A stretch of DNA of 64,000 bases from Ornithinimicrobium cerasi (GTDB taxonomy: Bacteria; Actinomycetota; Actinomycetes; Actinomycetales; Dermatophilaceae): contig NZ_QZMN01000010.1 of the NCBI RefSeq assembly GCF_003702705.1, forward strand, positions 85,699 to 149,698, written 5' to 3'. The notes below the pieces were generated by a model. That model saw only the letters and a list, made by a program, of their open reading frames with translations, ran no database searches and was not told the DNA's origin. Every line of letters starts with the position of its first letter. The stretch's first letter is position 1. Positions 1 through 54,500 of this stretch are shown one piece after another. The position numbers and the translations under genes are program-made.

Positions 1-1291
1 CCAGCGCCCGCATCGCCAGCTCGGCGTCACCGCGCCGGGCGGCGTCGAGCACCGCGCGCGCATGCCGGGTCACCAACGGCCTCAGGTATGCCGTCACCTC
101 ACCCTCCCGGACCCACTCCACCTCCGCGCTGCCCGCCGAGAGCGCGGCGACGACGGCGTCGGCGTCCCCGACGCGCAACGCCTCGGCCAGGGCCCCGATG
201 GTCTCGCCGTAGCGGTGCACGGTCCGCAGGCGGGCGAGGGCGACGGGGGAGGCGAGCGGCGTGCGGGCGGCACCGGCCACGATGTCGGCGAGGACCGCCC
301 CGGCGTCGACGGAGACCAGCTGGTCGGCGTCGCCGACGAGGATCAGCCGGGCAGCGGGCCGCAGTGCCTCCAGCAGCCTCGCCATGTGGGTGAGGGAGAC
401 CATCGACGCCTCGTCGACGAGCACCACGTCGTGGGGGAGCCGGTTGGAGCGGTCGTGCCGGAACCGCGTGCGGCTGTCCGGCCGCCAGCCGAGCAGCCGG
501 TGCAGGGTGAGCGCCTCGACGTCGGCGAGGGGCTCGATCACCGCTCGCGTCGCGGGGTCGGGGGTCCGGGCGAGGATCTCGCCGAGGGCGTCGGCGACGG
601 CTGCCCGGACGCGGGCCGCGGCCTTGCCCGTCGGGGCGGCCAGCCCCACGCGCAGCGGCCGCTCGCTCCCCGCCGCCGCCTGCTCCGCCAGGAGGGCGAG
701 GACGCCCGCCACGGTCGTCGTCTTGCCCGTCCCGGGGCCACCGGTGAGCACGGCGGTCCGGGCGTGGGCGAGCACCTGCGCGGCGGCGCGCTGCTCGGCA
801 TACCCCTCGCCGGGGAAGACGCGCTCGAGCCCGGCCGCCAGGACGACGTCGTCCACCGGCGGGGGACCCTGGGCCGCCCGGGCGCGCAGGTCGTCGACGA
901 CCTGCACCTCCTGGTGGTGGTAGCGCTGCAGGTAGACCAGGCCCTGGTCGACGACGAGCGCGCCCTCCCGGACCAGCCTGCTGCCGGCCACCCGCTCGGT
1001 CCAGCCGTCGGTGGCCGGCCACGGCAGGTCGCGGAGCGGACCCTCGTCGGGGGTGAGATCCGCCAGGTCGACGGCGACGGAGCCGGAGCGGACGGCGCGG
1101 GAGGCCAGCGCGGCGGCGAGCACCGCGTCCTCGTCCTGCTCGTGGCTCACCCGCGCCAGCGTGCGCGCGATGTGCACGTCGGCCGCGGTGAGGAGGCCGG
1201 CCCGGTTGAACGCCCCGAGGGCGCCGCTCGCGCTGAGCGCCAGCCGGCGGTCGTCGCCGCCGACCGGCTCGAACGTCTCCAGCAGGCTCAT
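1..1291 (-). CDS. recD: Exodeoxyribonuclease V subunit alpha RecD (3' end outside window)
   Basis: RecD is the 5'-3' helicase subunit of the RecBCD double-strand-break repair nuclease. About 430 residues are visible and the C-terminus runs off the left edge. The reading begins MSLLETFEPVGGDD. It shows an N-terminal helical region, then a superfamily 1 Walker A motif (GGPGTGKTT, Lys190), a downstream APTGKAAARV segment typical of RecD, and a Walker B region VLVDEASMV followed by LILVGDADQL. The ATG overlaps the RecB stop (ATGA), so the gene is the last of a translationally coupled recC-recB-recD operon. Nothing in the visible part looks damaged. Confidence 0.95.
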   Translation of the reverse strand, partial: MSLLETFEPVGGDDRRLALSASGALGAFNRAGLLTAADVHIARTLARVSHEQDEDAVLAAALASRAVRSGSVAVDLADLTPDEGPLRDLPWPATDGWTERVAGSRLVREGALVVDQGLVYLQRYHHQEVQVVDDLRARAAQGPPPVDDVVLAAGLERVFPGEGYAEQRAAAQVLAHARTAVLTGGPGTGKTTTVAGVLALLAEQAAAGSERPLRVGLAAPTGKAAARVRAAVADALGEILARTPDPATRAVIEPLADVEALTLHRLLGWRPDSRTRFRHDRSNRLPHDVVLVDEASMVSLTHMARLLEALRPAARLILVGDADQLVSVDAGAVLADIVAGAARTPLASPVALARLRTVHRYGETIGALAEALRVGDADAVVAALSAGSAEVEWVREGEVTAYLRPLVTRHARAVLDAARRGDAELAMRAL

Positions 1292-4200
1292 GCGCCGGCG
1301 CTCCTCTCGGGCAGGGCCGTGCCGTCCAGCAGGTCGGAGACGGCTCTGACCAGGGCCACCGGTGGCCGCCAGGAGAACACCCCGCACGGGTGGCCGTCGA
1401 CCTCCGGGGTGCCCGGCCCGCACATGCCCCGCACGTAGAGGTAGAGGACACCGCCCAGGTGACGGGCCGGGTCGTAGCCGCGCAGCCGCCAGCGCAGGAA
1501 GCGGTGGGCCACGACCGCGTAGAGCAGGGCCTGGAGGGGGTAGGAGGAGTGGCCCATGGCCTCGACGAGCATCTCGGGGCGGTAGTCGGCCGCGGTCAGC
1601 GGCTGCTCGGGGCGGCCCAGCCAGTTGGTCTTGTAGTCGACGACGAGGTAGCGACCGCTGGTGCGCAGCACGACGTCGACCGATCCGGTGAGGTAGCCGC
1701 GCAGGTCCTGGGCGCCGAGCTCGGGGCTGTGCTCGAGCACGTCGGCCCACGCCCGGACGGGGTCGCCGCTCGGCAGGTGGGCCCGCAGCAGGGGGGCGAG
1801 ATCGCCGAGCACGGCGGCGGGGGAGGCGTCGCGCCGGCGCAGGTCGCCGCCACCGAGCGGCAGCTCGAAGTCGAGCTCGCACAACCGGTCACCCTGCCCG
1901 ATCTGGCGGAGGGTGGCTCCGCCGGCGAGCGGACCCAGGGAGGTGTCGCACACGGCGACGAGGGCGTCCGCGAGGACGTCCGGGTCGAGGTCGACGGGCC
2001 ACTGCAGGCGCTGCTCCGCGACGTGCTGCAGCAGCTCGGTGCGCAGGTCCGGCGCCTGCGGGTCGGCGTGCTCCAGGATGGCGTGCACCAGCGACCCGAA
2101 GGTGGCTCCGACCGGCAGGTCCGCCATCGGCGAGGGCACGTCGGCACCGGGCACCGGCACCTCCAGCCCGGGCAGGGACGGGGTGAGGTCGAGGACGGGG
2201 TCGGGAGTCTCCGGCTCGTCCTCCCGCGGGGTCACCTCCGGCTCGCTGCCCACCCCACCCGTCAGCTCGAGGCCGGAGGCGTCGCGCGGGGTGGTCAGCG
2301 CGGTGTAGGAGGTGCGCCGCCAGCCGTGGTCGATCCGGCGGGTCCACCGTGCCAGCTCGAGGTCGGGCCGGGGCGGGACGGGCACCGGCGGGACCGCCGC
2401 GGCGGGGTCGGCGCGCTCGAGGACGAAGGCGCCCGCCCCGGCCCAGCGCTGCAGCACCTCGGTGGCCTCGGCGTCGCGGGTCGGCACCTTCACGACGTCG
2501 GGCACCTGCCCCTGGCCGGGCGGGCGCCCGAACAGCACCCGGTGCAGCGGCGAGCTGGCCGCGTTGGTCACCGGCGCCCACCACGTGACGACCTGGGACT
2601 GCGCCCGGGTGAGGGCGACGTAGAGGAGCCGGAGCGACTCCCCGGCGTCCTCGTCCTTGTGCGCCCGCACCGACGCGTCCCAGCCGGGGTTGCCCCGGGC
2701 GCCGCCGACGTCGAGGCAGCGGGTGCGCTCCGGCCCCGGCTCGTGGAAGAGCGGGATGTCGGGGCTGTCGCTGGTCCACCGGTCGGTGAGGGTCGGCAGG
2801 TAGACGACGGGGAACTGCAGGCCCTTGCTGCCGTGGATCGTCATCAGCTGCACGGCGGCGGCGTCGCTGTCCAGCCGTCGGGTCCGCGCGCCGGCCGACT
2901 GCGCGGCGTCCTCGGCCATCCCGGCGCGCAGCCACTCCAGCAGGGCGACGAGCCCCAGCTGGTGGCGGTGCGAGACCTCGTGCAGCAGCTGGGCGACGTG
3001 CCGCAGGTCGGTGAGGACGCGCTCCCCGCTGACCCGGCCCAGGACGCGCGCCGGCAGGCCCTCGACGACGAGGACCTCGAGCACGGCGGCGAGGCCCTGC
3101 CGCGCGTAGACCGCAGCCAGGTCGCGGCAGCGCCCGGCCAGCTCGTCGTCGAGGGGGGCCCCGCCCGCGGCGAGGGCGTGCACGTCATACCCGAGGAGGT
3201 CGGTGAGGGCCGCGGCACGGGTGAGGAGGGAGCGGTGCGGCGCGACCATCGCCTCGAGCAGGGTCAGCCAGTCCTGGGCGGCCCGCCCGTGGAGCACGGT
3301 GGAACCTCCCGTGCTGACGGCGGGGATGCCGAGGGCGTGCAGCTCGCGCTGCGCGAGGGCGAGGTCCTTGCCCTTGTGGGCGATGACCGCGACGTCGCGC
3401 GCCTGCACGGGCCGCCCGTCGAACGTCGCGTCCGAGGCGAGCAGGGACGCGACGTCCTGGGCGAGGTCGCGCGCGATGAACGGGCGCACCGTCGGCATCC
3501 GCCGGTCACCGCCGAGGTGCTCCTTGAGCAGGACCTGCCGCAGCCGGACCGGCGCGGGCGTCCCGCCCTCGGGGGTATGCGGTGCGCCCGCCAGTCGCGA
3601 GCCGGACAGGCGTGCGCTGACCCGGTGCACGGTGATCTTCTCGTCCCCGAGCTCCGCGCCGCCGAGCAGGACGCCGAGAGCGCCGACCACGCCCGCGTCG
3701 GACCGGAAGTTGTGGGGGAGCGTGCAGCTCGCCCCCGCGGTGGCCGCGGCCGTGAGGTAGGTGACGACGTCGCCGCCGCGGAAGGCGTAGATCGCCTGCT
3801 TGGGGTCCCCGATCAGCACCATCGCGAGCGCCTGCCCGGTGAAGGCCCGGTCGAGGACCTTCCACTGGACGGGGTCGGTGTCCTGGAACTCGTCGACGAG
3901 AACGACCTTCCAGCGCTGCCGCATCCGCTGGCGGGCGGGGGAGTCCTCCTCCTCCAGGGCGTCGGCGAGCTGGGTGAGCAGGTCGTTGTAGTGCATGACC
4001 TGCAGCCGGCGCTTCCGCACGTCCAGCTCGGCACGGACCGCGCCGGCGAAGCGCACCCGACGGTCGGCGGGGCTGCCGCGCTCCGCGCTGGTCGGGCGCA
4101 GCTCGGCGTGCACGTCGTCGACGACGGTGCGGGCGATCCGCAGCGCCTCGGACCGGTCGAACAGCGGCACCTTTTCGTCCCGGAGGAAGCCGCGCAGGTA

Positions 4201-4716
4201 GATGTCGTCCACGACGTCGACCAGCAGGTCGTCGAGGTCCTCGACGAGGGTCGCGCCGGCGTCGGCGGTGCCGGCGACCCCGAGGCTGCGCAGCACCTGC
4301 TGGCAGAACTGGTGCGTGGTGGCGATGGTGGCGGCGTCGAAGTGGGTCAGCGCGGCGCGCAGCCGCGCCCGCCGTGCCCGCAGCTCCGCCTGGTCGGCGT
4401 CGAGGAGGAGGCTGACCAGCTCGTCCCGCGTCTCCTCCGGCGGGGGGGAGGAGAGGGCGTGCTCGGCCGCGACGAGCTGCTCCCGCACCCGGGCCCGCAG
4501 CTCCTGGCTGGCGGCGCGGCCGAAGGTCACGACGAGCATCTCGGGCAGCGCGACGACGCCCTCGGCGACGAACCGCGTCACGAGCGCGGCGATCGTCCAG
4601 GTCTTGCCGGTCCCGGCGCTCGCCTCGAGCAGGACCGTGCCGCGGGGGAGGTCGTCGCGGATGGAGAAGGAGGTCCGGCCGGTGGCGCGGTCGAGGGGGA
4701 AGGGGAGGATCGTCAT
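1288..4716 (-). CDS. recB: Exodeoxyribonuclease V subunit beta RecB
   Basis: RecB is the 3'-5' helicase and nuclease subunit of RecBCD, 1142 residues here, near the usual length. It starts MTILPFPLDRATG; the ATG overlaps the recC stop. The UvrD-type motor is clear: Walker A in SAGTGKT (Lys38), the Walker B/II motif VDEFQDTDPVQW, GDPKQAIYAFRGGD, and LMTIHGSKGLQFPVVYL. The C-terminal nuclease domain keeps the catalytic VDYKTNW box (Asp1027, Lys1029) preceded by GSVDVVLR. Many actinobacteria rely on AdnAB instead, so a complete RecBCD is worth noting. The reading frame is open further upstream, but that extension lies inside recC and is not used. Confidence 0.95.
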   Translation of the reverse strand: MTILPFPLDRATGRTSFSIRDDLPRGTVLLEASAGTGKTWTIAALVTRFVAEGVVALPEMLVVTFGRAASQELRARVREQLVAAEHALSSPPPEETRDELVSLLLDADQAELRARRARLRAALTHFDAATIATTHQFCQQVLRSLGVAGTADAGATLVEDLDDLLVDVVDDIYLRGFLRDEKVPLFDRSEALRIARTVVDDVHAELRPTSAERGSPADRRVRFAGAVRAELDVRKRRLQVMHYNDLLTQLADALEEEDSPARQRMRQRWKVVLVDEFQDTDPVQWKVLDRAFTGQALAMVLIGDPKQAIYAFRGGDVVTYLTAAATAGASCTLPHNFRSDAGVVGALGVLLGGAELGDEKITVHRVSARLSGSRLAGAPHTPEGGTPAPVRLRQVLLKEHLGGDRRMPTVRPFIARDLAQDVASLLASDATFDGRPVQARDVAVIAHKGKDLALAQRELHALGIPAVSTGGSTVLHGRAAQDWLTLLEAMVAPHRSLLTRAAALTDLLGYDVHALAAGGAPLDDELAGRCRDLAAVYARQGLAAVLEVLVVEGLPARVLGRVSGERVLTDLRHVAQLLHEVSHRHQLGLVALLEWLRAGMAEDAAQSAGARTRRLDSDAAAVQLMTIHGSKGLQFPVVYLPTLTDRWTSDSPDIPLFHEPGPERTRCLDVGGARGNPGWDASVRAHKDEDAGESLRLLYVALTRAQSQVVTWWAPVTNAASSPLHRVLFGRPPGQGQVPDVVKVPTRDAEATEVLQRWAGAGAFVLERADPAAAVPPVPVPPRPDLELARWTRRIDHGWRRTSYTALTTPRDASGLELTGGVGSEPEVTPREDEPETPDPVLDLTPSLPGLEVPVPGADVPSPMADLPVGATFGSLVHAILEHADPQAPDLRTELLQHVAEQRLQWPVDLDPDVLADALVAVCDTSLGPLAGGATLRQIGQGDRLCELDFELPLGGGDLRRRDASPAAVLGDLAPLLRAHLPSGDPVRAWADVLEHSPELGAQDLRGYLTGSVDVVLRTSGRYLVVDYKTNWLGRPEQPLTAADYRPEMLVEAMGHSSYPLQALLYAVVAHRFLRWRLRGYDPARHLGGVLYLYVRGMCGPGTPEVDGHPCGVFSWRPPVALVRAVSDLLDGTALPERSAGA

Positions 4717-7700
4717 ACCCGCTCCAGCCGCTCCGCACCCGGTGCCAGGACCGGCCCCCAGACCCGCAGCGCGAGCTGCCCGAGGCGGGACTCGACCCCG
4801 GGCGTCCACCGCTCGTCGTCCCTGGGGGTGCCCAGCAGGTCGTTCAGCGGCACCGCGCCCCCGTGGACGTAGCTCCAGCTGGGGTCGTCCTGCTCCTTGG
4901 GGAACGCCTTCTCGAAGGTGTCGCTGGTCTGCCACTCGCGGTTGGCGTCCAGGGTGGCGGCCGGCGCGTCGGCCGGGCCGGACAGGTAGCTCTGCGCCCA
5001 GCGGAGGGAGGTCTGCAGCGGGAGCGGGAGCGGCTCGCGGAGCCCGCGATCGCGCAGGTCGACGAGCTGGTCCAGCAGCTCCAGCGCCCGGTCCGGGTCG
5101 TGGGGGCCGTGGGTGACGTGCACGTAACCGGGAGCGCGACCCCAGCGGTAGCGCCCGAGGACGTGGCTCGCGGCCTGCGGCCCGAGGGTGGCCGAGAGGG
5201 CGAGCGAGGTGATCCAGGACCGCAGGCGCTGCTTGGCCTTCACCGAGGAGTAGGTGAGCGTGAGGGCGCGCTCGCCGACCACGCCGGCGACGGTGCCGGT
5301 CAGCCGGCGCCCGCCGGGCAGGACGAGGTCGACGTCGACGACCTCCCTCGGCAGCTCGGTGCCGAGCCCGCCCTGGCCGGTGATGCTCCAGGCCGCCTCG
5401 CACAGCGCCTTCACGTCGGTCGCGACCTGCTGGAGGGTCCGGGTGCCGAGCTCGCCGGGCGGCAGCTCGCCCCGCCAGTGCTCCGCGTCGAAGGTGCCCA
5501 CGGGGTCGCGTCCGGAGAGCACGGCGGCGAGCACGCGATCGCCGATCGCCCAGGTCTGCAGCCCGTCGAGCTCGATCGGGATGCCCTCCCCCCGCACCTC
5601 GGCGACCTCGGGCAGGAGCAGCCCGAGCCTGTTGCGGAGGTAGGCACGGGCCGGGTTGTCGAAGAAGCGCAGCAGCTCTCCGAGGTCGACGTCGGCCCCG
5701 GGGCCGCCCGGCGGGTCGAGCACCTGGGAGGCGAGCACCGACTGGGTCTCGCGCTCGTCGATCGCCTCGCGCCCGCCGGCCAGCGCGGCCGGGTCGTAGC
5801 TGAACGGGCGATCCTGCGGCAGCAGGGGAGCGCGGTCGTCGGTGGCGGCGCCCAGGTTGCGGGCGTCGAAGGGCTGCAGCGGGTGGCAGGTCAGCACCCG
5901 CTCCACCCCCTCGCCCGTCGCCGTGCCGTTGACGGCGTCGACCAGCTCGCCCAGCGGCACGGCGGGCGGCCGCTCACGGCCCGTGTGCTCGTCGAAGCCG
6001 GTGTAGGTGATGACCAGCGTGTCGCCGGCCGACATCAGGGCGTCGAGGAGGAGCTGGCGGTCCTCGCTGCGCAGGTCGCGCTCCCCGGTGACCGGTCGAC
6101 GGGCCAGGGCGTCGTCGCCGTCGGGTGTCGTGGAGCGGGGGAAGTCACCGTCGTCGAGCCCGACGAGGCAGACGACCCGGTGGGGCACCGAGCGCATGGG
6201 GACCATCGTGCAGACGGTCAGGGTGCCGGTGCGGAAGTTCGAGCGGGTGGCCCGGCCGCTCGCCTGCTCCGACAGGAGCGCGTGGACGTCCGGGAGGGTC
6301 AGGGACGACCCGCCCCCACCGGCGCCGATACGCGCCAGCTCGGTCTCCAGCTGGGTCAGCTGCCAGGCGTCGCGGTAGGACACGTCGGCCAGGCCGAGCA
6401 CCCCCTGGTGCAGGGCGGTGACCCATTGCTCCACGCCGTCGGCCGACTGCAGCCGCCGCAGGGTCACGCCCAGCCGGTCGACCAGCTCGGCCATCCGTCC
6501 GGCGAGGTCGAGGTCACCGCTGTCCAGGTCGTCGAGCGCGAGGGTGGTGCCGAGGTGGTCGGTGTCCCGTCCGTCCACCGCTGCGCCGACCAGGATGCGG
6601 TCCAGTCCGGCCCGCCAGGTGTTCTGGGTCAGGTGCGGCAGCTGGTAGGCCGCGCGGTGCTCCTCGTCGAGCCCCCACCGCACCGCGACACCCTCCGCCC
6701 AGTCGCCGAGGCGCTCGAGCGCGTCGTCGTCCAGCCCGAACCGGTGACGGACGGGACCGCTGCGGGCCAGGTCCAGCACCTCGCTCGCCGTGAGCCGGCC
6801 GCCGGCCAGCGTGAGCAGGCGCAGCGCGAGGGCGAGCAGCGGGTTGGTCCGGAGCGGGGCCCGGTCGGCCAGCCGCACCCGCAGCCCGTGGGCCGGGTGC
6901 GCCTCCGCGGGGCCGACGACCTCCCCGAGGCCGAAGCCCGCGTGGACCAGGGGGGTGTAGGCGTCGATGTCGGGGCACATCACGAGGATGTCGCGGGGCT
7001 CGAGGGTCGGGTCGTGCTCGAGGAGGTCGGCGAGGACGTCGCGGAGCACCTCGACCTGCCGGGCCCGGCCGTGGCAGGCTCGCACCTGGACGCTGCGGTC
7101 GTCCGCCCCGACCACCCGCGTGCCGCGCTCGGCCTGGTCCGGGACGTGGTCCTGGGCCAGGTCGGACTGGAGCAGCCCCAGCAGCGTCGGGGCGACGGTC
7201 CGCCCGGTGGGGCCGTGGTGCTCGTCCACGCCGCCCGCGAGCGCCAGCGTGCGCTGCAGCTCGCGGGCGTCGCGGCCCAGGCTGGCCAGCAGCGGGTGCC
7301 GGACGAGCGCCCCCGAGCGGTCCTCGTCCCGCGGCACCGGCCCGGCGGTGGCCGCCCCGGCGAGGGCGTCCCAGGCACCGGGGGAGGCCTGCGGGAGCCA
7401 GAGGTGGACGTCGAGGTGCTCACCGAGCGCTGCCAGGACCTCCACCTCGCTCCGGGCGACCCGGGTGTGGCCGAACAGGGACAGCCGGCCGGGCAGGACG
7501 AGGTCCCGACCGAGCCTGAGACCCTCCGCGCTGCGTCCCCGCAGGTCTGCGACGACGCGAGCCTGCCGGACGTCGGGCGGCTCCCCGTCCACCTCGGCGA
7601 GGACCCGGCGCCACAGCTCCGGCTGCCAGGCGAGGTCGTCGGCGACCCGCCCGCCGAGCCCGTCACCGGAGCCGCCCTCGCGCCAGTCCGTCAGCAGGTC

Positions 7701-8159
7701 GGGACGCTGGGCCGCGTAGTCGGCGAAGAGGCCGGCCAGCCGACGGGCGAGGGCGTAGCGACGGCCTCGCCGCAGCTCGGCCTCGGTGCCGGACGCGCCA
7801 TACCCGAGGTGGATGGAGAGCGTCCTCGCCCAGGGCTCGCCGAGGCTCGCGTCGAGCGCGCGCAGCACCGACCAGGCGAGCTGGCCGGGGTGCCACGGGT
7901 CGTCGCGCCCGATCCCCAGCACGAGCGCCACGAGGGAGTGCGGGTTGAGGAAGCGCACCCCCGCGCACACCCCGTCGGACCCCTCCGGACCGGTGCCGAG
8001 CCGGTGCGAGAGACGCTGCGCCAGCCAGCGCTCGACGCCCTTGGCGGGCACCGCGACGACCTCCTCGGCGAACGGGTCCGGCAGCGGCTCCACAAGGAGC
8101 TCGGCCAGCCCGTCGGCGAGCACGTCGGTGCTCTGCGCTCGGTGCACGTACAAGGTCAC
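4713..8159 (-). CDS. recC: Exodeoxyribonuclease V subunit gamma RecC
   Basis: RecC is the scaffold and Chi-scanning subunit of RecBCD, 1148 residues. It opens MTLYVHRAQSTDVLADGL (GTG start), a typical RecC N-terminus, followed by VERWLAQRLSHRLG. The inactive helicase-like core includes LVMCPDIDAYTPLV-type and VCLVGLDDGDFPR segments. The C-terminus carries an inactivated nuclease-like fold ending in PLNDLLGTP and RLGQLALRVW. It is the first gene of the operon. No Shine-Dalgarno sequence precedes the GTG; instead a TAGGGT -10 element lies 7 nt upstream, suggesting a leaderless transcript. Confidence 0.93.
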   Translation of the reverse strand: MTLYVHRAQSTDVLADGLAELLVEPLPDPFAEEVVAVPAKGVERWLAQRLSHRLGTGPEGSDGVCAGVRFLNPHSLVALVLGIGRDDPWHPGQLAWSVLRALDASLGEPWARTLSIHLGYGASGTEAELRRGRRYALARRLAGLFADYAAQRPDLLTDWREGGSGDGLGGRVADDLAWQPELWRRVLAEVDGEPPDVRQARVVADLRGRSAEGLRLGRDLVLPGRLSLFGHTRVARSEVEVLAALGEHLDVHLWLPQASPGAWDALAGAATAGPVPRDEDRSGALVRHPLLASLGRDARELQRTLALAGGVDEHHGPTGRTVAPTLLGLLQSDLAQDHVPDQAERGTRVVGADDRSVQVRACHGRARQVEVLRDVLADLLEHDPTLEPRDILVMCPDIDAYTPLVHAGFGLGEVVGPAEAHPAHGLRVRLADRAPLRTNPLLALALRLLTLAGGRLTASEVLDLARSGPVRHRFGLDDDALERLGDWAEGVAVRWGLDEEHRAAYQLPHLTQNTWRAGLDRILVGAAVDGRDTDHLGTTLALDDLDSGDLDLAGRMAELVDRLGVTLRRLQSADGVEQWVTALHQGVLGLADVSYRDAWQLTQLETELARIGAGGGGSSLTLPDVHALLSEQASGRATRSNFRTGTLTVCTMVPMRSVPHRVVCLVGLDDGDFPRSTTPDGDDALARRPVTGERDLRSEDRQLLLDALMSAGDTLVITYTGFDEHTGRERPPAVPLGELVDAVNGTATGEGVERVLTCHPLQPFDARNLGAATDDRAPLLPQDRPFSYDPAALAGGREAIDERETQSVLASQVLDPPGGPGADVDLGELLRFFDNPARAYLRNRLGLLLPEVAEVRGEGIPIELDGLQTWAIGDRVLAAVLSGRDPVGTFDAEHWRGELPPGELGTRTLQQVATDVKALCEAAWSITGQGGLGTELPREVVDVDLVLPGGRRLTGTVAGVVGERALTLTYSSVKAKQRLRSWITSLALSATLGPQAASHVLGRYRWGRAPGYVHVTHGPHDPDRALELLDQLVDLRDRGLREPLPLPLQTSLRWAQSYLSGPADAPAATLDANREWQTSDTFEKAFPKEQDDPSWSYVHGGAVPLNDLLGTPRDDERWTPGVESRLGQLALRVWGPVLAPGAERLERV

Positions 8160-9863: not shown

Positions 9864-12242
9864 ATGGGTGCACGGACGAGGGCGGTCGTTGCGGCACTGG
9901 CGGCGCTGGCGCTCGCGGGCGGCCCGCTGCCCGCTCAGGGCTCGCCGGGAGCGGACGAGGGGCCTGCGCCGCGCACGATCAAGGAGGCGGTCGCCGACGA
10001 CCTCGGGATCACCATGACGGAGTTCGTCGAGGCGGGGGCGGCGGCCGAGCTCGCGGCCCCGCGACTGGGGCTGGAGGGTGACCGGACCGTTGGCACCGTC
10101 GGTCCACCGCCCCTCGCGCTCCTCACCGACGACGGCGTCGAGATCCTGGAGAGCGGTGCGGGGGAGGGCGCCCACGGCGCGTTCGCCGACCTGGAGGAGC
10201 TGCGCGGGCGTTACCTCGCCGACGTCGGTCCGGACGGCCTGACCGGTCTGGCCTACACCCTGAACGGCTACGAGGTCCTGGTCACGGACCCGGACGAGGC
10301 CCGGGAGCGAGGGCGCACGGACCCGTCCTCCCCGGTGCGCTCACCGAGGCAGTGGGCCGCCGAGCACCCCGGGGTCACCGTCGTCGGGACCACCGGCCCG
10401 CGGGCCGGGGCGACCCTCCGCGGTGGCGCGCCCATCTCCTTCGGGTCCTCGGCCTGCACGCACGGGTTCAACGGCTACTACAACAGGGCCCAGGTCGGTC
10501 TCGCCGCGGGACACTGCGCCCACGGGGGCGGGAGCGCGGTCTGGGCCGGTTCGACCCGGGTCGGCACCGTCACCTGGTTCCAGTTCGGGGCGCCGGGGTC
10601 GGCCCTGGAGTCCTACGGCACGGACCTGACGACCTACAGCCAGGGGTCCGCCTTCACCTACCCGCCGTCGGTGACCGCAGGCTCGAGCAGCGTGACGATC
10701 ACCGGCCGTGCCCCGGCCGTCCTGGGTCTGCCGGTCTGCAAGATGGGCCGTCAGACCGGCTGGACGTGCAGCACCGTGAACAGGATCGGCTGGCAGTGGA
10801 TCGGCGACGGCTCGGGCGACATCTCCCGGCCCAAGCGGTGGGTCTGGTCCCTCTTCGCCGACCTCCGGGTCATCCCCGGTGACTCCGGGGGTCCCTGGGT
10901 GGCCGGCAACAAGGCGGTCGGCGTCACCTCCTCCTACGACTGGTACGCCGACGGCCGGCCCTACTCCACCGCCGCCCTCCTCACCTCGCTCGACGACTAC
11001 CGTCCCGGTGCCCAGGTGAAGGTCTGGCTGGGCAGCCCGTCGGTGGGTGGCGTCGAGAAGGTCGACGCCACCACGGCGCTGGCCCGGTGGGCCAGGGGCC
11101 GCGTGGTCAGCGGCACCCTCAGCAGGCCGTCGGGCGACTCGATCTCGCCGGGCACGGTGATGGACGTCGTCGTGGACGGCACCCGGGTGGCCTCGCCGTC
11201 GGTGGCGGCCGACGGCACGTTCAGCTTCTCCTACCCCGGCTCGGACGCCACGGCCCACACCGTCACCATCCAGGCACGCCAGGGGGACTCCCGCGGGAGC
11301 GTGCTCCGGGTCCTCGACGAACCGGCAGGGTCCGCGCCGAAGGTGGTCCGCCACGCCGGCGCCAACCGCTACGCGACCGCCGCGACCGTCGCGAGGACCT
11401 TCTACGCGCCGGGGGTGGACACCGTCTACGTCGCCTCGGGCCAGGACTTCGCCGACGCGCTGTCGGGGGGCGCCCGGGCGGGGTCCGACGGGGTGCCCGT
11501 CGTCCTCACGCCGGCCACCGGGCTGCACACCGCCACGCGGGACGCGCTCACCCATCTCGCCCCGCGCCGCATCGTCGTGCTCGGGGGGACGGTCGCGGTC
11601 TCGGGCGCGGTGGAGAGGGAGCTGCGCACCTACGCCCCCGTCGTGGAGCGGGTCGAGGGCCTGGACCGCTACCACGTCTCCGCCGCGGTCTCCCGGACCT
11701 ACCCGGCCGGCCAGAGCACGGTCTTCGTGGTCAGCGGGCAGGCCTTCCCGGACGCCCTGGGCGCCTCGGCGCAGGCGGGGTCCCTCGGCGTCCCGCTCGT
11801 GCTGACCCGGTCCACGAGCCTGCCTGCGGTCGTGGCCACCGAGCTCGCGCGCCTGCGCCCCGCCGAGATCGTCGTCGTGGGCGGCACCGTGGCCGTGAAC
11901 GGGGACGTGGAGGCGGCGCTGCGGGCCTACGCCCCGAAGGTCACCCGCATCGCCGGCAGGGACCGCTACATCGTCTCGGCCCTGCTCGCCCAGAGGTATG
12001 CCGTGCCCGCCCAGGAGGCGTGGGTGGCCCGCGGGACCGACTTCCCGGACGCGCTCGCGGCCGCGCCCGTCGCGGCCCGGGAGGGCGCACCCGTCGTGCT
12101 GACGCGACCGACCGGGCTCCCGGCGGTGGTGGGGACCGCGCTGGAGCAGGTCCGGGCGCCGGTGGTCCGCATCGCCGGCGGGACCGTGTCGGTGGACCAG
12201 GTCGTGGAGCGCGACCTGAGGTGGCTGACGTACCCGTTGTGA
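9864..12242 (+). CDS. Secreted trypsin-like serine protease with three C-terminal CWB2 repeats
   Basis: The predicted exoprotease of 792 residues starts with a signal peptide (residues 1-26, cleavage near PAQGSPGA). A roughly 150-residue propeptide-like region follows, then a chymotrypsin-fold domain with His217 (AAGHC), Asp254 (SYGTDLTTY) and Ser341 (GDSGGPW), the complete S1 triad arrangement of streptogrisin-like enzymes. A short beta-sandwich-like linker (about 395-490) leads to three cell-wall-binding type 2 repeats (about 492-590, 590-690 and 690-790), each with an NRYATA/DRYHVS-like start and a VVLGGTVAVS-like core. CWB2 domains anchor proteins non-covalently to wall polymers, so the enzyme probably stays at the surface. 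Monocistronic. Confidence 0.92.
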   Translation: MGARTRAVVAALAALALAGGPLPAQGSPGADEGPAPRTIKEAVADDLGITMTEFVEAGAAAELAAPRLGLEGDRTVGTVGPPPLALLTDDGVEILESGAGEGAHGAFADLEELRGRYLADVGPDGLTGLAYTLNGYEVLVTDPDEARERGRTDPSSPVRSPRQWAAEHPGVTVVGTTGPRAGATLRGGAPISFGSSACTHGFNGYYNRAQVGLAAGHCAHGGGSAVWAGSTRVGTVTWFQFGAPGSALESYGTDLTTYSQGSAFTYPPSVTAGSSSVTITGRAPAVLGLPVCKMGRQTGWTCSTVNRIGWQWIGDGSGDISRPKRWVWSLFADLRVIPGDSGGPWVAGNKAVGVTSSYDWYADGRPYSTAALLTSLDDYRPGAQVKVWLGSPSVGGVEKVDATTALARWARGRVVSGTLSRPSGDSISPGTVMDVVVDGTRVASPSVAADGTFSFSYPGSDATAHTVTIQARQGDSRGSVLRVLDEPAGSAPKVVRHAGANRYATAATVARTFYAPGVDTVYVASGQDFADALSGGARAGSDGVPVVLTPATGLHTATRDALTHLAPRRIVVLGGTVAVSGAVERELRTYAPVVERVEGLDRYHVSAAVSRTYPAGQSTVFVVSGQAFPDALGASAQAGSLGVPLVLTRSTSLPAVVATELARLRPAEIVVVGGTVAVNGDVEAALRAYAPKVTRIAGRDRYIVSALLAQRYAVPAQEAWVARGTDFPDALAAAPVAAREGAPVVLTRPTGLPAVVGTALEQVRAPVVRIAGGTVSVDQVVERDLRWLTYPL

Positions 12243-12994: not shown

Positions 12995-14323
12995 TCAGAC
13001 CTCGGTGAGCAGGGTCGCCGGCTCCTCCACGCAGTCGGCGACGAACCGCAGGAACCCGCCGGCGGTGCCGCCGTCGCACACGCGGTGGTCGAAGGTGAAC
13101 GAGAGCTGGGTCACCTTGCGCACCCGCAGCCTGCCCTTGTGCACCCACGGCTTGTCGACGATGCGACCGACCCCGAGCATCCCCGTCTCGGGGTGGTTGA
13201 TGATCGGGGTGGAGCCGTCCACGCCGTGGACGCCGTAGTTGTTCAGGGTGAACGTCCCCCCGCTCATCTGGGCCGGCGACAGGCTGCCCTCCCGCGCGGC
13301 CGAGGTCAGCTCCCGCAGGGCGGCCGCCAGCTCCGGGGTGGACATCTCCGAGGCCCCGTGGACCACGGGCACGACGAGGCCGCGCGGGCTCTGCGCCGCG
13401 AAGCCCAGGTTGACCCTCCCGTGGTGCACGACCTCACCGGCGTCCAGGTCGACCGAGGAGTTCAGCGCGGGATACCTCCGGAGCCCGGCGACGACGATCC
13501 TGGCCAGGAGCGGCAGCACGCCGATCCCGGCGTCCGGCCGGGCCTGCTTCAGCGCGTCCTTGGTCCGCATCAGGCGCGTCGCGTCGACGTCCACCCAGGT
13601 CGTGGCGTCCGGGATCTCGCGGCGGGACCTGCTCAGCCGCTCGACCATCACCTTGCTCACGCCCTGGATGGGCACCCGGACGTCGCCGGCACCGCCAGCA
13701 CGGTATGCCGTCCCGTCCGGGGTGCCGGACCCACCGGACCGCTCCTGGCGGGCCGCCTCCAGGTCCGCCCGGCGGACCACCCCGGTCGGACCAGGCTGCA
13801 CGCTCGTCAGGTCTATCCCCCACTCGCTCGCCAGCCTGCGCACGAGGGGGGAGATCACGCGGACCGCCGCCCTGCCGGCGACGGACGGCGGGCCCGGTGG
13901 CGCGGGCGTCTGCGCAGCGGCCGCCCCACCTCGTCGACCCCCACGGCGACGCCGCTCGGGGCCGGCGCCCGCGCCATACCCGATGAGCGGTCGCTCGGGG
14001 GAGTCCTGCGCGCCGGGGTCCCCCTGAGGGACCTGGGCTCCGGCCCGCTCCTCGGAGCGGTATTGCTCGCCCGCCGCGTCGCCGCCGGCGATGGTGATGA
14101 GCGGGGAGCCGACGGCCAGGACGGTGCCCGGCTCGGCGTGCAGCTCGGCGACCGCGCCGGCGTAGGGGCAGGGGACGTCCACCGACGCCTTCGCCGTCTC
14201 GACGGTGACGACCTCCTGGTCCACACCCACCTCGTCCCCGACGACCACGTGCCAGGCGACGACCTCGGCCTCGGTCAGGCCCTCACCGAGGTCGGGCAGG
14301 CGGAAGACCTGCGCCGTGCTCAC
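12995..14323 (-). CDS. bkdC: 2-oxoacid dehydrogenase E2 (dihydrolipoyl acyltransferase)
   Basis: E2 core of a 2-oxoacid dehydrogenase complex, 442 residues. Residues 1-80 form one lipoyl domain with the lipoylated Lys45 in ETAKASVDV. A long Gly/Ala/Pro-rich linker follows, then a peripheral subunit-binding domain (ISPLVRRLASEWGIDL) and a catalytic acyltransferase domain ending in FTFDHRVCDGG, which holds the catalytic His. The GTG start overlaps the E1-beta stop (GTGA). With only one lipoyl domain and an Lrp regulator nearby it is best read as the branched-chain complex, although pyruvate is not excluded. No E3 gene is present in the window. Confidence 0.9.
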   Translation of the reverse strand: MSTAQVFRLPDLGEGLTEAEVVAWHVVVGDEVGVDQEVVTVETAKASVDVPCPYAGAVAELHAEPGTVLAVGSPLITIAGGDAAGEQYRSEERAGAQVPQGDPGAQDSPERPLIGYGAGAGPERRRRGGRRGGAAAAQTPAPPGPPSVAGRAAVRVISPLVRRLASEWGIDLTSVQPGPTGVVRRADLEAARQERSGGSGTPDGTAYRAGGAGDVRVPIQGVSKVMVERLSRSRREIPDATTWVDVDATRLMRTKDALKQARPDAGIGVLPLLARIVVAGLRRYPALNSSVDLDAGEVVHHGRVNLGFAAQSPRGLVVPVVHGASEMSTPELAAALRELTSAAREGSLSPAQMSGGTFTLNNYGVHGVDGSTPIINHPETGMLGVGRIVDKPWVHKGRLRVRKVTQLSFTFDHRVCDGGTAGGFLRFVADCVEEPATLLTEV

Positions 14324-23784: not shown

Positions 23785-23829
23785 GGCGGCCGTCCTTTCG
23801 GGGAGAGGGGTATGCCGTGCTGGCGTCGG

Positions 23830-28098: not shown

Positions 28099-28125
28099 GC
28101 GGCGCCCGGGGGCACCACGCTCCCC

Positions 28126-42208: not shown

Positions 42209-42977
42209 GTCCGAGCGTCCTCCCGGCGGCCTTCGCCGCCCTCCCCAGGTATGCCGCCACCTCCGCCGCGCGCTCCTCGCCCCCGCGGCCGGCCGGGTCG
42301 GGAGTCCCGCCGGCCGTCCCGGTCAGGTCGGCCGCGAGGGCGCCGACGGCCGCGCCGGCCGCGTCGAGCACCGGGACGGCGACCTCGGCCGGGACCGTGC
42401 GGTCGGAGGGGCGGTGGGCCAGCCACTCGGCGCCCCGCCACTCCTCCCGGGACGCCTCGGCGTCGGCCCGGTCCTCCTCGCCCGCGGCAGCCAGGGCCAG
42501 GGCCCAGCCGTCCTCGTCGGAGCGGGCCGCGAGCAGCCGGCCGCCGGCCGTGGACAGCGCCGGGTGCACCCGGTGGCTGTCGCGGAAGGGGCCGGAGGCG
42601 TCCGAGTCGACGCGATCGACATACACGACCTCGCCCCGGACGAGCACCTCGACGTGCACGGTCGCGCCCACCTGGTCGCGGACCTGGGAGAGGTAGGGGG
42701 AGAGGGCGCCGAGCAGGGGCAGCCGCCCGAGGTAGTGGTGCGAGAGGCGGCTCAGCTCCGGGCCGAGGCCGTAGCGGGAGGTGGCGCGGTCCTGGACGGC
42801 GAGGTCGGCCAGGACCAGGGAGCGCAGCAGGCGGTGGACGGTCGGGATCGACATCGAGGAGCGCTCGGCGAGGTCGGTGAGCTGGTGGTACGCCGGGCCC
42901 TGCGCCAGCAGCTCGAGCAGCTGGACCGCGTTGCGCACGGTGCCCAGCCCGCCGCGCGCAGCATCACCGTTCGGCAT
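42201..42977 (-). CDS. IclR-family regulator of the second liv cluster
   Basis: A 258-residue IclR regulator. The helix-turn-helix is TVRNAVQLLELLAQG followed by ERSSMSIPTVHRLLRSLVLADL; the effector domain includes GATVHVEVLVRGEVVYVDRVDS and EVAVPVLDAAGAAVGALA. The ATG follows AAGGAGGG; a longer in-frame version would run into the repeat at 43011. It is divergent from livG, with an AT-rich palindrome between them, and is followed by the synthetase-like gene. Confidence 0.88.
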   Translation of the reverse strand: MPNGDAARGGLGTVRNAVQLLELLAQGPAYHQLTDLAERSSMSIPTVHRLLRSLVLADLAVQDRATSRYGLGPELSRLSHHYLGRLPLLGALSPYLSQVRDQVGATVHVEVLVRGEVVYVDRVDSDASGPFRDSHRVHPALSTAGGRLLAARSDEDGWALALAAAGEEDRADAEASREEWRGAEWLAHRPSDRTVPAEVAVPVLDAAGAAVGALAADLTGTAGGTPDPAGRGGEERAAEVAAYLGRAAKAAGRTLGHG

Positions 42978-44133: not shown

Positions 44134-46144
44134 GCGTCGCACCCGGCTGGCGAACCGCACCGACGCCACCGCCCCGGGCGCAGGCCCCAGCGCCGCGCAG
44201 ACCTTCCCCCGCCTCCTGGAGCACCTGGCCACGCAGCGCCCCGACGGGGTCGCGATGCAGGAGAAGCTCTACGGCATCTGGCAGCCCCTCACCTGGGCGG
44301 AGTACCGCCGCCGCGTCGAGGACTTCGCGCACGGTCTCTCGGGGTATGGCGTGCAGCGCGGCGAGATCGTCGCCGTCCTCGGTGACAACCGCCCGGAGTG
44401 GCTCATCGCCGAGCTCGCCGCCCAGAGCATCGGCGCGGCCGTCGTCGGCATCTACCCGACCTCGATCGGCGAGGAGCTGGAGCACATCCTCGCGACGTCC
44501 CGCGCCCGCGTCGTCGTCGTCGAGGACCAGGAGCAGGTGGACAAGCTGCTCAAGCTGCGCGAGAGCGTCCCCGACCTCCTCGTCGAGCGGGTCGTCTACT
44601 ACGACCCCCACGGCCTGGAGTCCTACGACGACCCGTGGCTGGTGGACTTCACCGAGGTCGAGCGGGTCGGGCGCGAGCGCGCCGAGCAGCACCCCGGCTG
44701 GTATGCCGAGCAGGTCGCCCGGAGCTCCCCCGAGGACATCGCCGTCATCTGCACGACGTCCGGCACGACGTCCAAGCCCAAGCTCGGCGAGCTCTCGCAC
44801 GCCAACCTGCTCGCGATGGCCGACCACCTCACCGAGATCGACCCGGCCGACGCCTCGTTCCGCTACGTCTCGTTCCTGCCCTTCGCGTGGATCGGCGAGC
44901 AGATGCTCGCCGTCGCCATCGGCCTCTCCCGCGGCCTGACGCTCAGCTTCCCCGAGGACGCGTCGACCCAGCGCTCGGACCTGCGCGAGATCGGCCCGGA
45001 CGTGATGTTCTCCCCGCCGCGGATCTGGGAGTCGATGCTCTCCGAGGTCCAGGTGCGCATCGACGAGGCCGGCTGGCTCAAGCGCAAGGTCTTCGGCTGG
45101 GGGTATGACGTGGGCGACCGGGCCGCGCAGGCGCGCACCACGGGCAAGGGCGGGGGCACGACCCCTCTGACCTGGGTGGCGGACGCGGTCTCGACCCGCC
45201 CGGTGCGCGACCAGCTCGGCCTGGCCCGCGTGCGCCGCGCCTACACCGGCGGTGCGCCGCTGGGCCCCGACGTCTTCCGCTTCTTCCACGCGATCGGCGT
45301 CAACCTCAAGCAGATCTACGGCCAGACCGAGATCTGCGGCATCGCGGTGGTGCACCGCGACGACGACATCGCCTTCAACACCGTCGGCACCCCGATCCCC
45401 GGCACCGACCTGCGGATCAGCGACGAGGGCGAGATCCTCCTGCGGTCGCCCTCGGTCTTCCGCGGCTACCACAAGCAGCCGGAGGAGACCGCGAAGACGG
45501 TCGACCCGGACGGCTGGCTGCACACCGGCGACGCCGGCTACGTCGACGAGAAGGGCCACCTGGTCGTCATCGACCGCCAGAAGGACGTCCTCACCGCGCC
45601 CGACGGCAGCCGCTACTCCAGCGCGTTCATCGAGAACAAGCTGAAGTTCAGCCCCTACGTCGAGGAGGCCGTGACCTTCGGCCCGCGGACGTCGGGCGAG
45701 GGGATGACGGCGATGATCACGATCGACCCCGGGACCGTCGGGTCGTGGGCCGAGCACGAGCGGCTGAGCTACACGACCTACTCCGACCTCGCGCAGAAGG
45801 AGGAGGTCTACGACCTGCTCGCCGAGGAGATCACCCGCGCCAACGAGGACCTGCCCGAGGCGATCCGGGTGCGCCGGTTCGTGCTGCTGCACAAGCAGCT
45901 GGACCCCGACGACGACGAGATCACCCGCACCCGCAAGGTCCGGCGCAACGTCATCGACGAGCGCTACGCCGACATCATCGCCGCCCTGCGCGCCGGCGAC
46001 GACGCGGCCCGGATCAGCAGCCGGGTGACCTACCAGGACGGCAGCTCCGTCGTCCGCGAGCTGCAGCTGCGCATCTTCGACCTGACCACCTACGAGATCC
46101 CGCAAGGGCGGGCTCGCCGACCTGTCTGGAGCGGACGCCGATGA
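44126..46144 (+). CDS. fadD: Long-chain acyl-CoA synthetase (FadD15-like)
   Basis: A 672-residue AMP-forming acyl-CoA ligase. Motifs present: phosphate loop TTSGTTSKPK, the fatty-acid gate region YVSFLPFAWIGEQ, YGQTEICG, DGWLHTGDAGYVDEKGHLV and the C-terminal lysine in ITRTRKVRRNVID. Unlike the two other adenylate-forming genes nearby it appears catalytically complete. Placement inside a liv cluster suggests that the imported acid is activated with CoA at once. GTG start within the end of livG. Very long-chain versus aryl substrates cannot be told apart from sequence. Confidence 0.87.
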   Translation: MAERRTRLANRTDATAPGAGPSAAQTFPRLLEHLATQRPDGVAMQEKLYGIWQPLTWAEYRRRVEDFAHGLSGYGVQRGEIVAVLGDNRPEWLIAELAAQSIGAAVVGIYPTSIGEELEHILATSRARVVVVEDQEQVDKLLKLRESVPDLLVERVVYYDPHGLESYDDPWLVDFTEVERVGRERAEQHPGWYAEQVARSSPEDIAVICTTSGTTSKPKLGELSHANLLAMADHLTEIDPADASFRYVSFLPFAWIGEQMLAVAIGLSRGLTLSFPEDASTQRSDLREIGPDVMFSPPRIWESMLSEVQVRIDEAGWLKRKVFGWGYDVGDRAAQARTTGKGGGTTPLTWVADAVSTRPVRDQLGLARVRRAYTGGAPLGPDVFRFFHAIGVNLKQIYGQTEICGIAVVHRDDDIAFNTVGTPIPGTDLRISDEGEILLRSPSVFRGYHKQPEETAKTVDPDGWLHTGDAGYVDEKGHLVVIDRQKDVLTAPDGSRYSSAFIENKLKFSPYVEEAVTFGPRTSGEGMTAMITIDPGTVGSWAEHERLSYTTYSDLAQKEEVYDLLAEEITRANEDLPEAIRVRRFVLLHKQLDPDDDEITRTRKVRRNVIDERYADIIAALRAGDDAARISSRVTYQDGSSVVRELQLRIFDLTTYEIPQGRARRPVWSGRR

Positions 46145-46163
46145 GCGACAGGAACGTGACGCG

Positions 46164-47036: not shown

Positions 47037-47043
47037 CCAGGCC

Positions 47044-50253: not shown

Positions 50254-50285
50254 CCCGCACGCCATACCGACCCAAGGAGTGACCC

Positions 50286-51506: not shown

Positions 51507-51510
51507 CCCG

Positions 51511-54500
51511 TCAGGGCAGGCGGGTCAGCGGCTTCGTCGTCCACAGCACCGCGTCGGTCATGGGGCCGCGGAAGTGCTCCCGGGGCAGCCGCAGCTGGTC
51601 GCCGTCGAGCTCCCAGCCGACCTCCGCGAGGTGGAAGTCCAGGCACCACGAGCCCCGGTCGGCCCCGAGCAGCAACCGGTCCGGGCGGCCGTCCACCCGT
51701 GACACCGCCCCGGCGCAGTACTCCTCGCCGTGCTCCCCACGGGTGATGACGTAGCTCGCGGGGCCCAGCTCCAGCACGTAGTCGCCGGTCTGGATCTCGA
51801 GCAGGCTGGACAGCTCGGCGCGGCTGCGGTCGTCCAGCGGCGCCCCGAACGCCTCCTCGTAGTAGGCGGTCGTGGCCTCCTCCAGCTCGGCGCGGGGCCA
51901 GCTCACGGCATACCTGCCCCGGAGCTCGACCGGCACGGTCGACGCCTCGCCGCGCAGCTCGGCCAGGCTCGGGCACGGCTCGACGCGGTATGCCGTGCAC
52001 TCGGTCGCGGTCAACCCGCGGGTGAGCGCGGCGCGGGCCAGGGCGAGGAGACGGTCGGGGTCGGTGGTCACCGTCACCACGTCGCCGAGGTTGCTCATCA
52101 CCAGGAGGTCACGGTCGTCCAGCCACTGCACGCCCTCGACGCTGCCCGGCCCGGGTGACGCCTGGTCGACGAGGGTGCCGGTCGTCAGGTCCCAGATCCG
52201 CACCGCACCGTCGCTGGTGCCCAGGGCCAGCCGGGTGCCGTCGGGGGAGACGTCCGCCGCGCGCACGGAGTCCTGGGTGACGTTGGTCCACACCGTCCGG
52301 CTCAGCAGGGTCACCGGGTCGACGAGGAGCACCGACGTGGGCGGGGTGGTGTCGCGGTAGGGGGTGACGACAACCAGCGAGCCGTCCGCGGCATACCCGA
52401 GGGTGCCGGCGGTCCCGGAGCCCTGGACGTCGAGGGGGGCGGAGGTGACCAGCGTCCAGTCACCCGTCCCGAAGGCCACGAGGTGACCGCCGGTGGTCGA
52501 GACGACGAGCCGGTCGGAGGTGGGGGAGAACAGCAGCTCGCGCGGTGCGCCGTACGCCTCCTGCCCGGGAGACCCCTGCGTCAGCAGGGTGGTGACGACG
52601 GCCCCGGTCGACGCGTCCCAGACCGCGACCGCACCGTGGTGGGGGTCGGCGGCCGCGACCCACCGGCCGTCCGGCGACCAGCGCACCCGGTGGGCGTCGA
52701 GGGCGAACGGTGCTTCCGGTGGCAGCGGGCACCCCGCCTCCTCCGGACGGCCTCGGGGGTGCTCGCACAGACCCTCCAGGGTGAGGGTGACCTCCCCGGT
52801 GGCGATGTCGCGCAGCTCGAGGGCGCCGACGAGGACGTGCCCCGCCTCCTCGTCGAGACGCCCCAGCTGGGAGACCAGCAGGCGGTCGTCGGGGGAGGTC
52901 TCGAACGCCGCCGTCCAGTTGACGTCCTCCCACCCGCGCAGGTCGGTGCCGCCCAGGGTCACGGCCTGCACCTGCCCGACCTCGGGGAAGCCGCACTCCC
53001 GGCCGACGACGACGTGGTCGCCGGCGACCCGGAACTGGTCGGCCCAGCCGTTGCCGCCGCAGGAGGGGAGCGACCATCCCTCGCTCGAGGGCCGCTCGTC
53101 GAGGACGACCGCGCCGTAGGTCGGCGAGCGCGGCACGACGATCCTGCCCTCCCCGCCCGCCGAGGGACGGCCGCTGCCGGCGGCGGGGTAGCGGCGCAGC
53201 ACCGCGCCGGACCGGGCGTCCCACTCCACCACGGCGTTGTCCGCCGCGCTGGTGAGCACCGTGGACCCGTCGGGACCGAAGGCACCGTAGGAGGAGATGG
53301 CCTGATGGCCGGCGAACGCGGCGACCACGCTCCCGTCGGCCACCGAGACCACCTTCCACGCGGACGTCACGTTGGCGACGTCGAGCACCAGGAGGTGCTC
53401 CCCGGTGGGGTCGAGGTCGTGCGGCAGAACGGCGGGGACGCGCGTGAGCTCCTCCCCGGTGGCCGGGTCCACGACCAGGGCATAGCCCGTCGACCCTGAC
53501 CCCTGGTGGACCGCCGCGACCGAGCCGTCGTCGCTGAGGGCGGCGCCGATCGACCAGGTCATGTCCGCGTGGGTGCGCCCGAGCAGGCGCTCCTTCCCGG
53601 TCTCCAGGTCGACGACGGAGTTGGCGACCTCCCCCTCGTCCCACAGGCACCCGTCCAGCACCCGCCGCCGCTCGTCCTCGTCGGTGCCGGGAGGGACGGT
53701 GAGGGTGCGCACGAGGGCGACACCTCCGCCCACGGCGAGGGGCCAGCCGCCGCACGGGCCGACGTCGAGGACCCGCAGTCGCTCGTGCGTGGAGCCGTCC
53801 CGGACGTGGAGGCCGACCAGGTCCTCCGGTGGCGGGGGAGCGTCCTCGACGGGGCCTCCCACCCGCATCCAGTGCCACGGCTGCCAGACGACGCCGCTCA
53901 CGAGAAGCGACCCGTCGGGGGAGTAGACGGCGCCGGCCATGAAGGCCGACTCGTGCCCCGGTGTGTCCGGGCGCACCCACTCCCAGACCAGGTCGCCGGT
54001 GAGGGCGTCGTGCACCTCCAGGGCGAGAGCGGGCTCGCCCCTGCTCTCGCCCGTCATGGCGATGCGGGACCCGTCGGGGGAGAGAACGGCGGCGAGGCGG
54101 TTGGTGAAGTGGTTCATGCTCACCCGCGCGACGATGCTGTCGGCGGCGAGGCTGCTGTGAAGGGCGCCGCTCGACTGCAGGCTGGGTGGGGCGACCTCGG
54201 CACCGAGCACCGCGAGCGCCTTGGCCAGCGGAGGGTCCTGGTCGAGCGCGGCGAGGGCGGACGCGGAGAGCTCGTTGGCGCGGGCACGGGCGGCCTCGGA
54301 GGTGGCCACCGCCTGGGAGTCCTGCGCGGCGCGCCACTGCAGCCGCGCCGCCGTGCCGAAGCCGGCCGCGGCGAGAGCCAGGACGAGGGCCGCGGTGACC
54401 AGCACCCGCAGCCGGCGGTTCGCGCGACCCTGCCGTCGGGCCTCGTCCTCGACCCGCGCGAACTCCGTCCGGTGGGCCGCCTCGCTCGCGTCGAGGAAGG

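Follow-up and report, generated by a model that had tools for sequence, protein, structure and literature searches.

The window analysed here (64 kb; positions 85699–149698 of contig C2 of genome G000, an assembly of 3.83 Mb in 87 contigs from the genus Ornithinimicrobium) carries many copies of the octamer GGTATGCC. We lean towards the view that this word is a genome-wide self tag kept at the level of DNA, most likely a DNA uptake sequence (DUS). Its combined profile is that of an uptake sequence: the two strands are used equally, there are dialects and apparent losses, stem-loops form between genes and at gene ends, copies turn over, and phage DNA lacks it. Uptake was not among the explanations offered in a preliminary description of the window.

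The mechanism would be as follows. The natural-transformation machinery (Flp/Tad pilus, ComEA, ComEC) would include a DNA receptor, at the surface or in the envelope, with a preference for fragments containing (G)GTATGCCG. Transformation with DNA from kin would then spread the word and maintain it in the genome that kin share; phage DNA and other incoming DNA would be without it. We infer the receptor, its preference, and the role of uptake, as opposed to another DNA-level process, as the keeper of the word. The fuller proposal, that the tag is ancestral to the family, has since diversified into dialects and been lost repeatedly, is read via the Flp/Tad pilus, ComEA and ComEC with a sequence-specific receptor, and has an origin separate from that of the systems in Neisseriaceae and Pasteurellaceae, is one that we regard as evenly poised.

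Copy number in the window and the genome

An exact search of the window finds 26 copies of GGTATGCC, 18 on the plus strand and 8 on the minus strand, where 100 dinucleotide shuffles gave a mean of 0.60 and a maximum of 4. The preliminary description had counted at least 27 exact copies; the enrichment holds and the total does not. All 23 of the coordinates that it listed are correct, and the remaining three copies are at 28126, 28179 and 28231. Its remarks that the word is often extended and that variants add several more are borne out by GGTATGCCGT, which accounts for 16 of the 26 copies, and by GGTATGGC/GCCATACC, with 7 further copies. Copies lie on both strands and both within and between genes, as it also said: according to our gene calls, 11 are sense, 11 antisense and 4 intergenic, with those at 85 and 797 counted in recD. 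These calls, on which the density, frame and codon tests below also rest, come from our own codon-composition script and not from an annotation.

The whole G000 genome has 1127 copies (578 + 549 on the two strands), compared with 18 (6 + 12) for the reversed pattern, and a second genome of the genus, G007, has 2180. Against an order-3 Markov background from which the motif had been masked, GGTATGCC was observed 280 times in the G007 sample and expected 4.9 times, an excess of approximately 57-fold; this sample is 415 kb from one contig, in which a 15-kb stretch (L079) overlaps another (L038) by 5 kb. In the G000 sample (249 kb, including part of the prophage described below), GGTATGCCG occurs 86 times with 0.82 expected, approximately 105-fold. 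The counts are thus far from the Markov expectation with which the preliminary description had proposed to compare them. In the non-enriched genome G032 there are 2 copies of GGTATGCC with 0.56 expected from the motif-masked background; here and below, the labels enriched and non-enriched are our reading of the counts. Over-representation of a short word on both strands, across the genus and the family, is one of the marks of an uptake sequence.

From 52398 to 64000, the final 11.6 kb of the window, there is no copy, where about 6 would be expected from the density in the rest; this part was possibly acquired more recently.

Form of the word and codon usage

Motif profiles show a common core with flanking positions that differ between genomes. 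In the G000 sample the core GTATGCC has a G on each side, at a frequency of 0.94 after it and 0.79 before it, and then comes T or C, so that the G000 form is GGTATGCCG[T/C]. The G007 form is GGTATGCC[G/C/T], the position that follows the core being G (0.51), C (0.36) or T (0.12). In G034 and G035, from other genera, the form is GTATG[C/A/G]CG, the sixth base also being A or G, and in G106 it is GTATGCCGCG. These differences are genus dialects round a common core. Weak words are also found in non-enriched genomes: GGATGCCG in G032 and CCCCCTTCG in G109. The word is non-palindromic, its reverse complement being GGCATACC, and the palindromic neighbours GGCATGCC and GGTATACC have no copies in the window.

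A by-product of codon pairs, of a repeat family or of base composition could in principle give rise to such a word. It would account for the frame xGG-TAT-GCC, which the 11 sense copies of the window all share, and for the two arrays of 52- or 53-bp units that carry the word. However, copies are found on both strands and in several antisense frames, and the codon test in G007 refutes it: GG-TAY-GCC is written with TAT 75 times and with TAC 10 times (75/85), compared with a TAT share of 7.2% among tyrosine codons elsewhere, and 38 of the 59 ATA codons fall within copies of the word. The word thus concentrates two rare codons, TAT and ATA, in agreement with the preliminary description, which had argued that coding does not explain the copies. 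An origin as a repeat family was rejected on the basis that the flanks carry little information beyond approximately 10 bases. We give this whole class of explanation almost no credence. Maintenance at the DNA level is supported by the codon test, by the use of both strands and by the intergenic enrichment described below.

Occurrence in the family and beyond

Named relatives were taken from 15 loci chosen by RecC, and the genomes of 10 of these were searched for GGTATGCC. The control throughout is the reversed word (CCGTATG for the core GTATGCC). Copies are numerous in Ornithinimicrobium tianjinense (1283; control 17), O. pekingense (817; control 11), O. cavernae (532; control 31), an Ornithinimicrobium metagenome-assembled genome (MAG; 395; control 31) and Ornithinimicrobium sp. 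F0845 (293; control 19). They are few in Piscicoccus intestinalis (35; control 22), Occultella glacieicola (49; control 28), Occultella gossypii (63; control 32) and two Nocardioidaceae MAGs (63 and 61; controls 16 and 28). G046, from another family, has 111 with a control of 24. NCBI taxonomy places Ornithinimicrobium in the Ornithinimicrobiaceae, order Micrococcales; its GTDB family we take to be Dermatophilaceae.

A survey of 187 genomes of the family found many genera with approximately 1000–4900 copies of GTATGCC, and others at the control level. Non-enriched genomes also occur within enriched genera: G023 has 87 copies within Ornithinimicrobium, and in genus g58 there are 40 in the non-enriched G141, compared with 3866 in G142 and 1194 in G143. 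Across the order (396 genomes, 362 of them outside the family and from 19 families) the largest ratio to control is about 3.2 (G508, 217 vs 67). In a survey of the phylum (246 genomes) the ratio outside the family is at most about 3.5 (for example G770, 107 vs 31), except for tiny counts (G768, 15 vs 2; G776, 20 vs 4). The core GTATGCC(G) is therefore enriched in many genera of one family, and the 19 other families of the order in the sample are at or near background.

These ratios have limits. The control CCGTATG is part of CCGTATGCC, which is common in some dialects; the control is therefore high there, and the ratios understate the enrichment. G086, G088 and G143 were called enriched at only about three times the control, no more than the best genome outside the family, although their copy numbers are 1194–2649 compared with 217 for that genome. 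Two genera, g30 and g43, are intermediate; the ratio of most g30 genomes is also that of the non-enriched G066, so that g30 offers no clean contrast.

In a tree of 19 genomes, built from four protein clusters of the comEC locus with midpoint rooting and including one node with a support of 0.02, enriched genomes are found in most of the main branches and non-enriched genomes are nested among them several times. The simplest reading of this small tree is that the word is apparently an old family trait that has been lost repeatedly.

Positions of the copies

The word is denser between genes than within them. In 213 kb of G000, called genes have 0.27 copies per kb and the sequence outside them 1.79, so that 31 of 84 copies occupy the 8% of bases outside genes; in 400 kb of G007 the densities are 0.63 within and 1.11 outside genes. 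Densities outside genes include copies that run over a gene edge: where flanking genes were seen on both sides, intergenic and edge copies number 26 and 2 in G000, and 35 and 12 in G007. By type of gap, G000 has 1.97 copies per kb in tandem, 2.27 in convergent and 0.59 in divergent gaps.

Close pairs were counted in 115 of 163 sequences, comprising 1.98 Mb of enriched loci with the in-between locus L098 included. Of copies less than 60 bp apart, 44 pairs are inverted and 9 point the same way, with a further 4 same-way pairs in tandem arrays; omitting G106 leaves 29 inverted and 8 same-way pairs (P 0.0008). Many of the inverted pairs form near-perfect stem-loops, in which the stem varies and the word is constant (for example at position 12957 of L111, from G134, and position 10873 of L126, from G106). 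G106, sampled over 160 kb, has 11 intergenic inverted pairs, every one of them 2–66 bp beyond the 3′ end of a gene; they contain 21 of the 46 intergenic copies, and each has a more stable fold than its own base-shuffled versions (z from −3.5 to −10.1). Stem-loops of inverted pairs downstream of genes are a further mark of an uptake sequence, and G106 has them.

Aligned window copies are exact in O. tianjinense in 11 of 16 cases (0.355 for permuted words; P 0.007), in O. pekingense in 6 of 13 (permuted 0.364), in G012 in 3 of 9 (0.245), in G004 in 3 of 9 (0.307) and in G003 in 1 of 3 (0.320). It is density that is kept more than position, with turnover of the copies.

Two intergenic tandem arrays in G000, made of 52- or 53-bp units, carry the word: one in the window at 28123–28306 and one on contig C1 at approximately 148889–149002 (L001, 18889–19002). 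Both lie between convergent genes and are followed by similar sequence.

A prophage in comEC lacks the word

The comEC gene of G000 is split, its first part being at C66:47721–47819 and the remainder at C66:88165–88884. The interruption (C66:47820–88164; L083, L119 and L084) is a phage-like element with an integrase; ten of its proteins were searched, and the matches include phage integrase, exonuclease, helicase, terminase, portal, head and tape-measure families. The prophage has no copy of the word in 40.3 kb and its flanks have 16 in 43.7 kb (P approximately 7e-6 at the genome density). Its GC content is slightly lower (0.71–0.73 vs 0.72–0.77, in 4-kb pieces), and its edges share no word of 12 bases or longer. 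Absence from recently acquired DNA, as expected of an uptake sequence, is thus seen on one island, the prophage.

The insertion recalls the comK prophage of Listeria. In G125, of genus g53, comEC is split at about the same place (profile position approximately 30), with approximately 28 kb between the parts (C1:2175993–2204556; L122 and L123).

RecBCD and strand polarity

The window encodes RecB and RecC on the minus strand at 1291–8159, and the truncated gene that precedes them matches recD, as a fragment and below the model cut-off. The preliminary description had suggested on this basis a Chi-like recombination signal, and the idea, extended to any end-processing nuclease, has in its favor the local RecBCD genes as well as an octamer length and a density similar to those of the Chi sites of RecBCD and AddAB. 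The distribution of RecC is at odds with it. In a first panel RecC is found in 31 of 32 Ornithinimicrobium genomes, including the non-enriched G023, and in none of 5 genomes from other genera of the family, three of which are enriched; in a second panel (G034–G036 belong to both) 10 of the 30 enriched genomes and 4 of the 6 non-enriched ones have it. Of the 9 non-enriched family genomes tested, 5 have RecC, and 20 of the 30 enriched genomes from outside Ornithinimicrobium lack it; genera g67 and g70 contain enriched members with and without it side by side (G167 and G165; G189 and G190). Its presence tracks enrichment in neither direction.

Chi sites in E. coli are biased in orientation towards the leading strand. 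No such bias is seen here: in G007 there are 138 leading and 134 lagging copies, counted in 20 even stretches with strands assigned from GC skew and not from dnaA, and in sampled enriched loci with a clear skew the G-rich strand has 464 copies and the C-rich strand 495. Chi was rejected on the RecC surveys and the strand balance together, and we consider a signal of this kind very improbable. A motif for segregation or architecture was also raised in the preliminary description; it could be a polar chromosome word of the KOPS, SRS or AIMS type, read by an FtsK-like translocase. The genome-wide and family-wide distribution would suit such a word, but the unbiased orientation relative to GC skew does not, nor does the balance of forward and reverse counts along the G007 sample; we hold this to be a slighter chance still.

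Transformation genes and other possible readers of the word

In Micrococcus luteus, the transformation genes comprise a Tad/Flp pilus with ComEA and ComEC (PMC4322843), and similar genes are widespread in the family. Of 75 family genomes, all have a match to ComEC and 72 have one to the Flp pilin family, whether the genomes are enriched or not. The enriched G000 has a Tad locus that includes Flp and minor pilins (L099), and the non-enriched G032 (L110) has all but one of the gene clusters of that locus. ComEC, Flp pilin and the content of the Tad locus were accordingly rejected as an on/off switch, because both groups have them. In two genomes of genus g55, the Flp pilin family DUF4244 is represented only by half matches approximately 73 and 160 kb apart (G129, contig C78; G136, contig C1).

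Several observations weigh against uptake as the function of the word. The comEA/comEC locus looks alike in enriched and non-enriched genomes; since ComEC, Flp pilin and this locus are common to both groups, nothing among them ties the word to uptake, and no sequence-specific receptor was identified among the uptake genes surveyed. Classical type IV pili were rejected as the reader, since just one of 75 genomes has a PilT match above the cut-off. The literature searched yielded no case of transformation in a family member, and the interrupted comEC of the window organism implies that this strain may not transform today. The positional evidence is also uneven. Six of the 8 convergent-gap copies of G000 belong to the two tandem arrays; gaps in G007 have no convergent preference (0.82, 0.84 and 1.01 copies per kb in tandem, convergent and divergent gaps), and spacing there is approximately random (median 940, mean 1360), even spacing not being seen. 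Hairpin pairs are frequent in G106, seen in G134 and rare in Ornithinimicrobium, and most of those in G106 have no following T run, so that any function as terminators is putative. Conservation of sites is clearly above the control only in the comparison with the closest relative, O. tianjinense. Finally, words with one mismatch are only modestly in excess in G007 (373 vs 154), and largely at the first and the tolerated positions.

A PilT-type ATPase proper is encoded in G143 (C2:219671–221944; L071) and there is a near match in two pieces in G036; such genes are rare in the family panel.

Two other kinds of reader would also maintain a self tag. In the first, the word would resemble HIP1 of cyanobacteria and be made or kept, without uptake, by a methyltransferase linked to mismatch repair or by some other maintenance process. 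HIP1 too is a highly iterated octamer, spread across an entire lineage apart from exceptional losses, and its abundance is linked to methyltransferases (PMC4390886); occurrence on both strands, in genes and in gaps, and absence from phage DNA would fit equally. Unlike HIP1, however, which is palindromic, the word here is not (GGTATGCC vs GGCATACC), and stem-loops past gene ends, as in G106, are a reported habit of uptake words on which the HIP1 abstract is silent. An explanation of this type appears to us rather unlikely. In the second, GGTATGCC would be the binding site of a non-polar nucleoid protein or of a protein that separates self from non-self, for example by exclusion of a silencer or as a BREX-type methylation mark. 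The absence from the prophage and the nested losses would suit any self mark; the inverted pairs past gene ends are again a known habit of uptake words, and for ordinary restriction or BREX sites one would not expect enrichment in the host genome. We think this distinctly unlikely. An uptake sequence remains the reading that we prefer.

Comparison with known uptake words

The closest likeness is to the DUS of the Neisseriaceae, which occurs in thousands of copies within and between genes, has family dialects, is missing altogether from some members, and is paired in inverted orientation at gene ends and at terminators (PMC3630211). It is over-represented in the core genome and low in or absent from recently acquired genes (PMC2734928). 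The form of DUS with AT before GCCGTCTGAA has the seven letters ATGCCGT in common with our word, possibly by chance. In contrast, the CTG core (positions +6 to +8) of all DUS dialects (PMC3630211) is missing from the motif profiles obtained here, and the full 12-mer DUS has no copies in the sampled loci. The host is also different, being a Gram-positive actinobacterium in which type IVa pili are not general and uptake through the word is putative.

The uptake signal sequence (USS) of the Pasteurellaceae differs in sequence from the word described here, and our word is without the long flanking consensus. The USS is similar in being a short iterated word with many copies, and its receptor is described as not established (PMC12616744).

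Searches of the open-licence literature of PubMed Central, several of them on neighbouring topics, listed no report of this word or of any actinobacterial uptake sequence; of the 400 papers there that contain its letters, the listings covered ten. Uptake words are named there for Neisseria relatives and Pasteurellaceae; sections of a paper on mycobacteria describe none as reported for them (PMC10526031), and corresponding sections of a paper on ComEC make no mention of an actinobacterial one (PMC6299819). The kind of system is known, and the word and the phylum appear to be new. If the proposal is correct, this would be a further system, in a phylum where transformation, as far as known, depends on a different pilus, implying that DNA words for self-recognition have evolved more than once; the word would also help to predict which actinobacteria transform, and with what DNA. 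The contrasts within genera (G141 against G142 and G143; G023 against the other Ornithinimicrobium genomes) provide material for finding the gene for the reader.

Copies in the window

The first two copies lie within recD, at 85–92 on the plus strand (antisense to the gene) and at 797–804 on the minus strand (sense, frame xGG-TAT-GCC). The next, at 11995–12002 (plus), is sense in a gene with CWB2 domains. Antisense copies on the plus strand follow in the genes for a 2-oxoacid dehydrogenase acyltransferase (13702–13709) and a dehydrogenase E1 component (15761–15768). A LigD-domain gene has one sense copy at 18071–18078 (minus) and one antisense copy at 18905–18912 (plus). There is a sense copy at 20092–20099 (minus) in the gene for a decarboxylase dependent on pyridoxal phosphate, and an antisense copy at 21489–21496 (plus) in an aminotransferase gene.

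The copy at 23809–23816 (plus) is intergenic, and that at 24244–24251 (minus) is coding and sense. The other three intergenic copies, all on the plus strand, are in the 52-bp tandem array between convergent genes, at 28126–28133, 28179–28186 and 28231–28238; the array itself (28123–28306, plus strand) comprises 3.5 units of period 52, three of which contain the motif. All remaining copies are coding. Those in the sense orientation are at 30188–30195 and 44700–44707 on the plus strand, and at 33881–33888, 36495–36502, 51907–51914 and 52390–52397 on the minus strand. The antisense copies are at 29039–29046, 32321–32328, 39863–39870, 41534–41541, 42248–42255 and 51987–51994, all on the plus strand.

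Beside recC, the window encodes a large protein (9864–12242) that contains three CWB2 repeats, of the cell-wall-binding kind, and weakly matches serine proteases.

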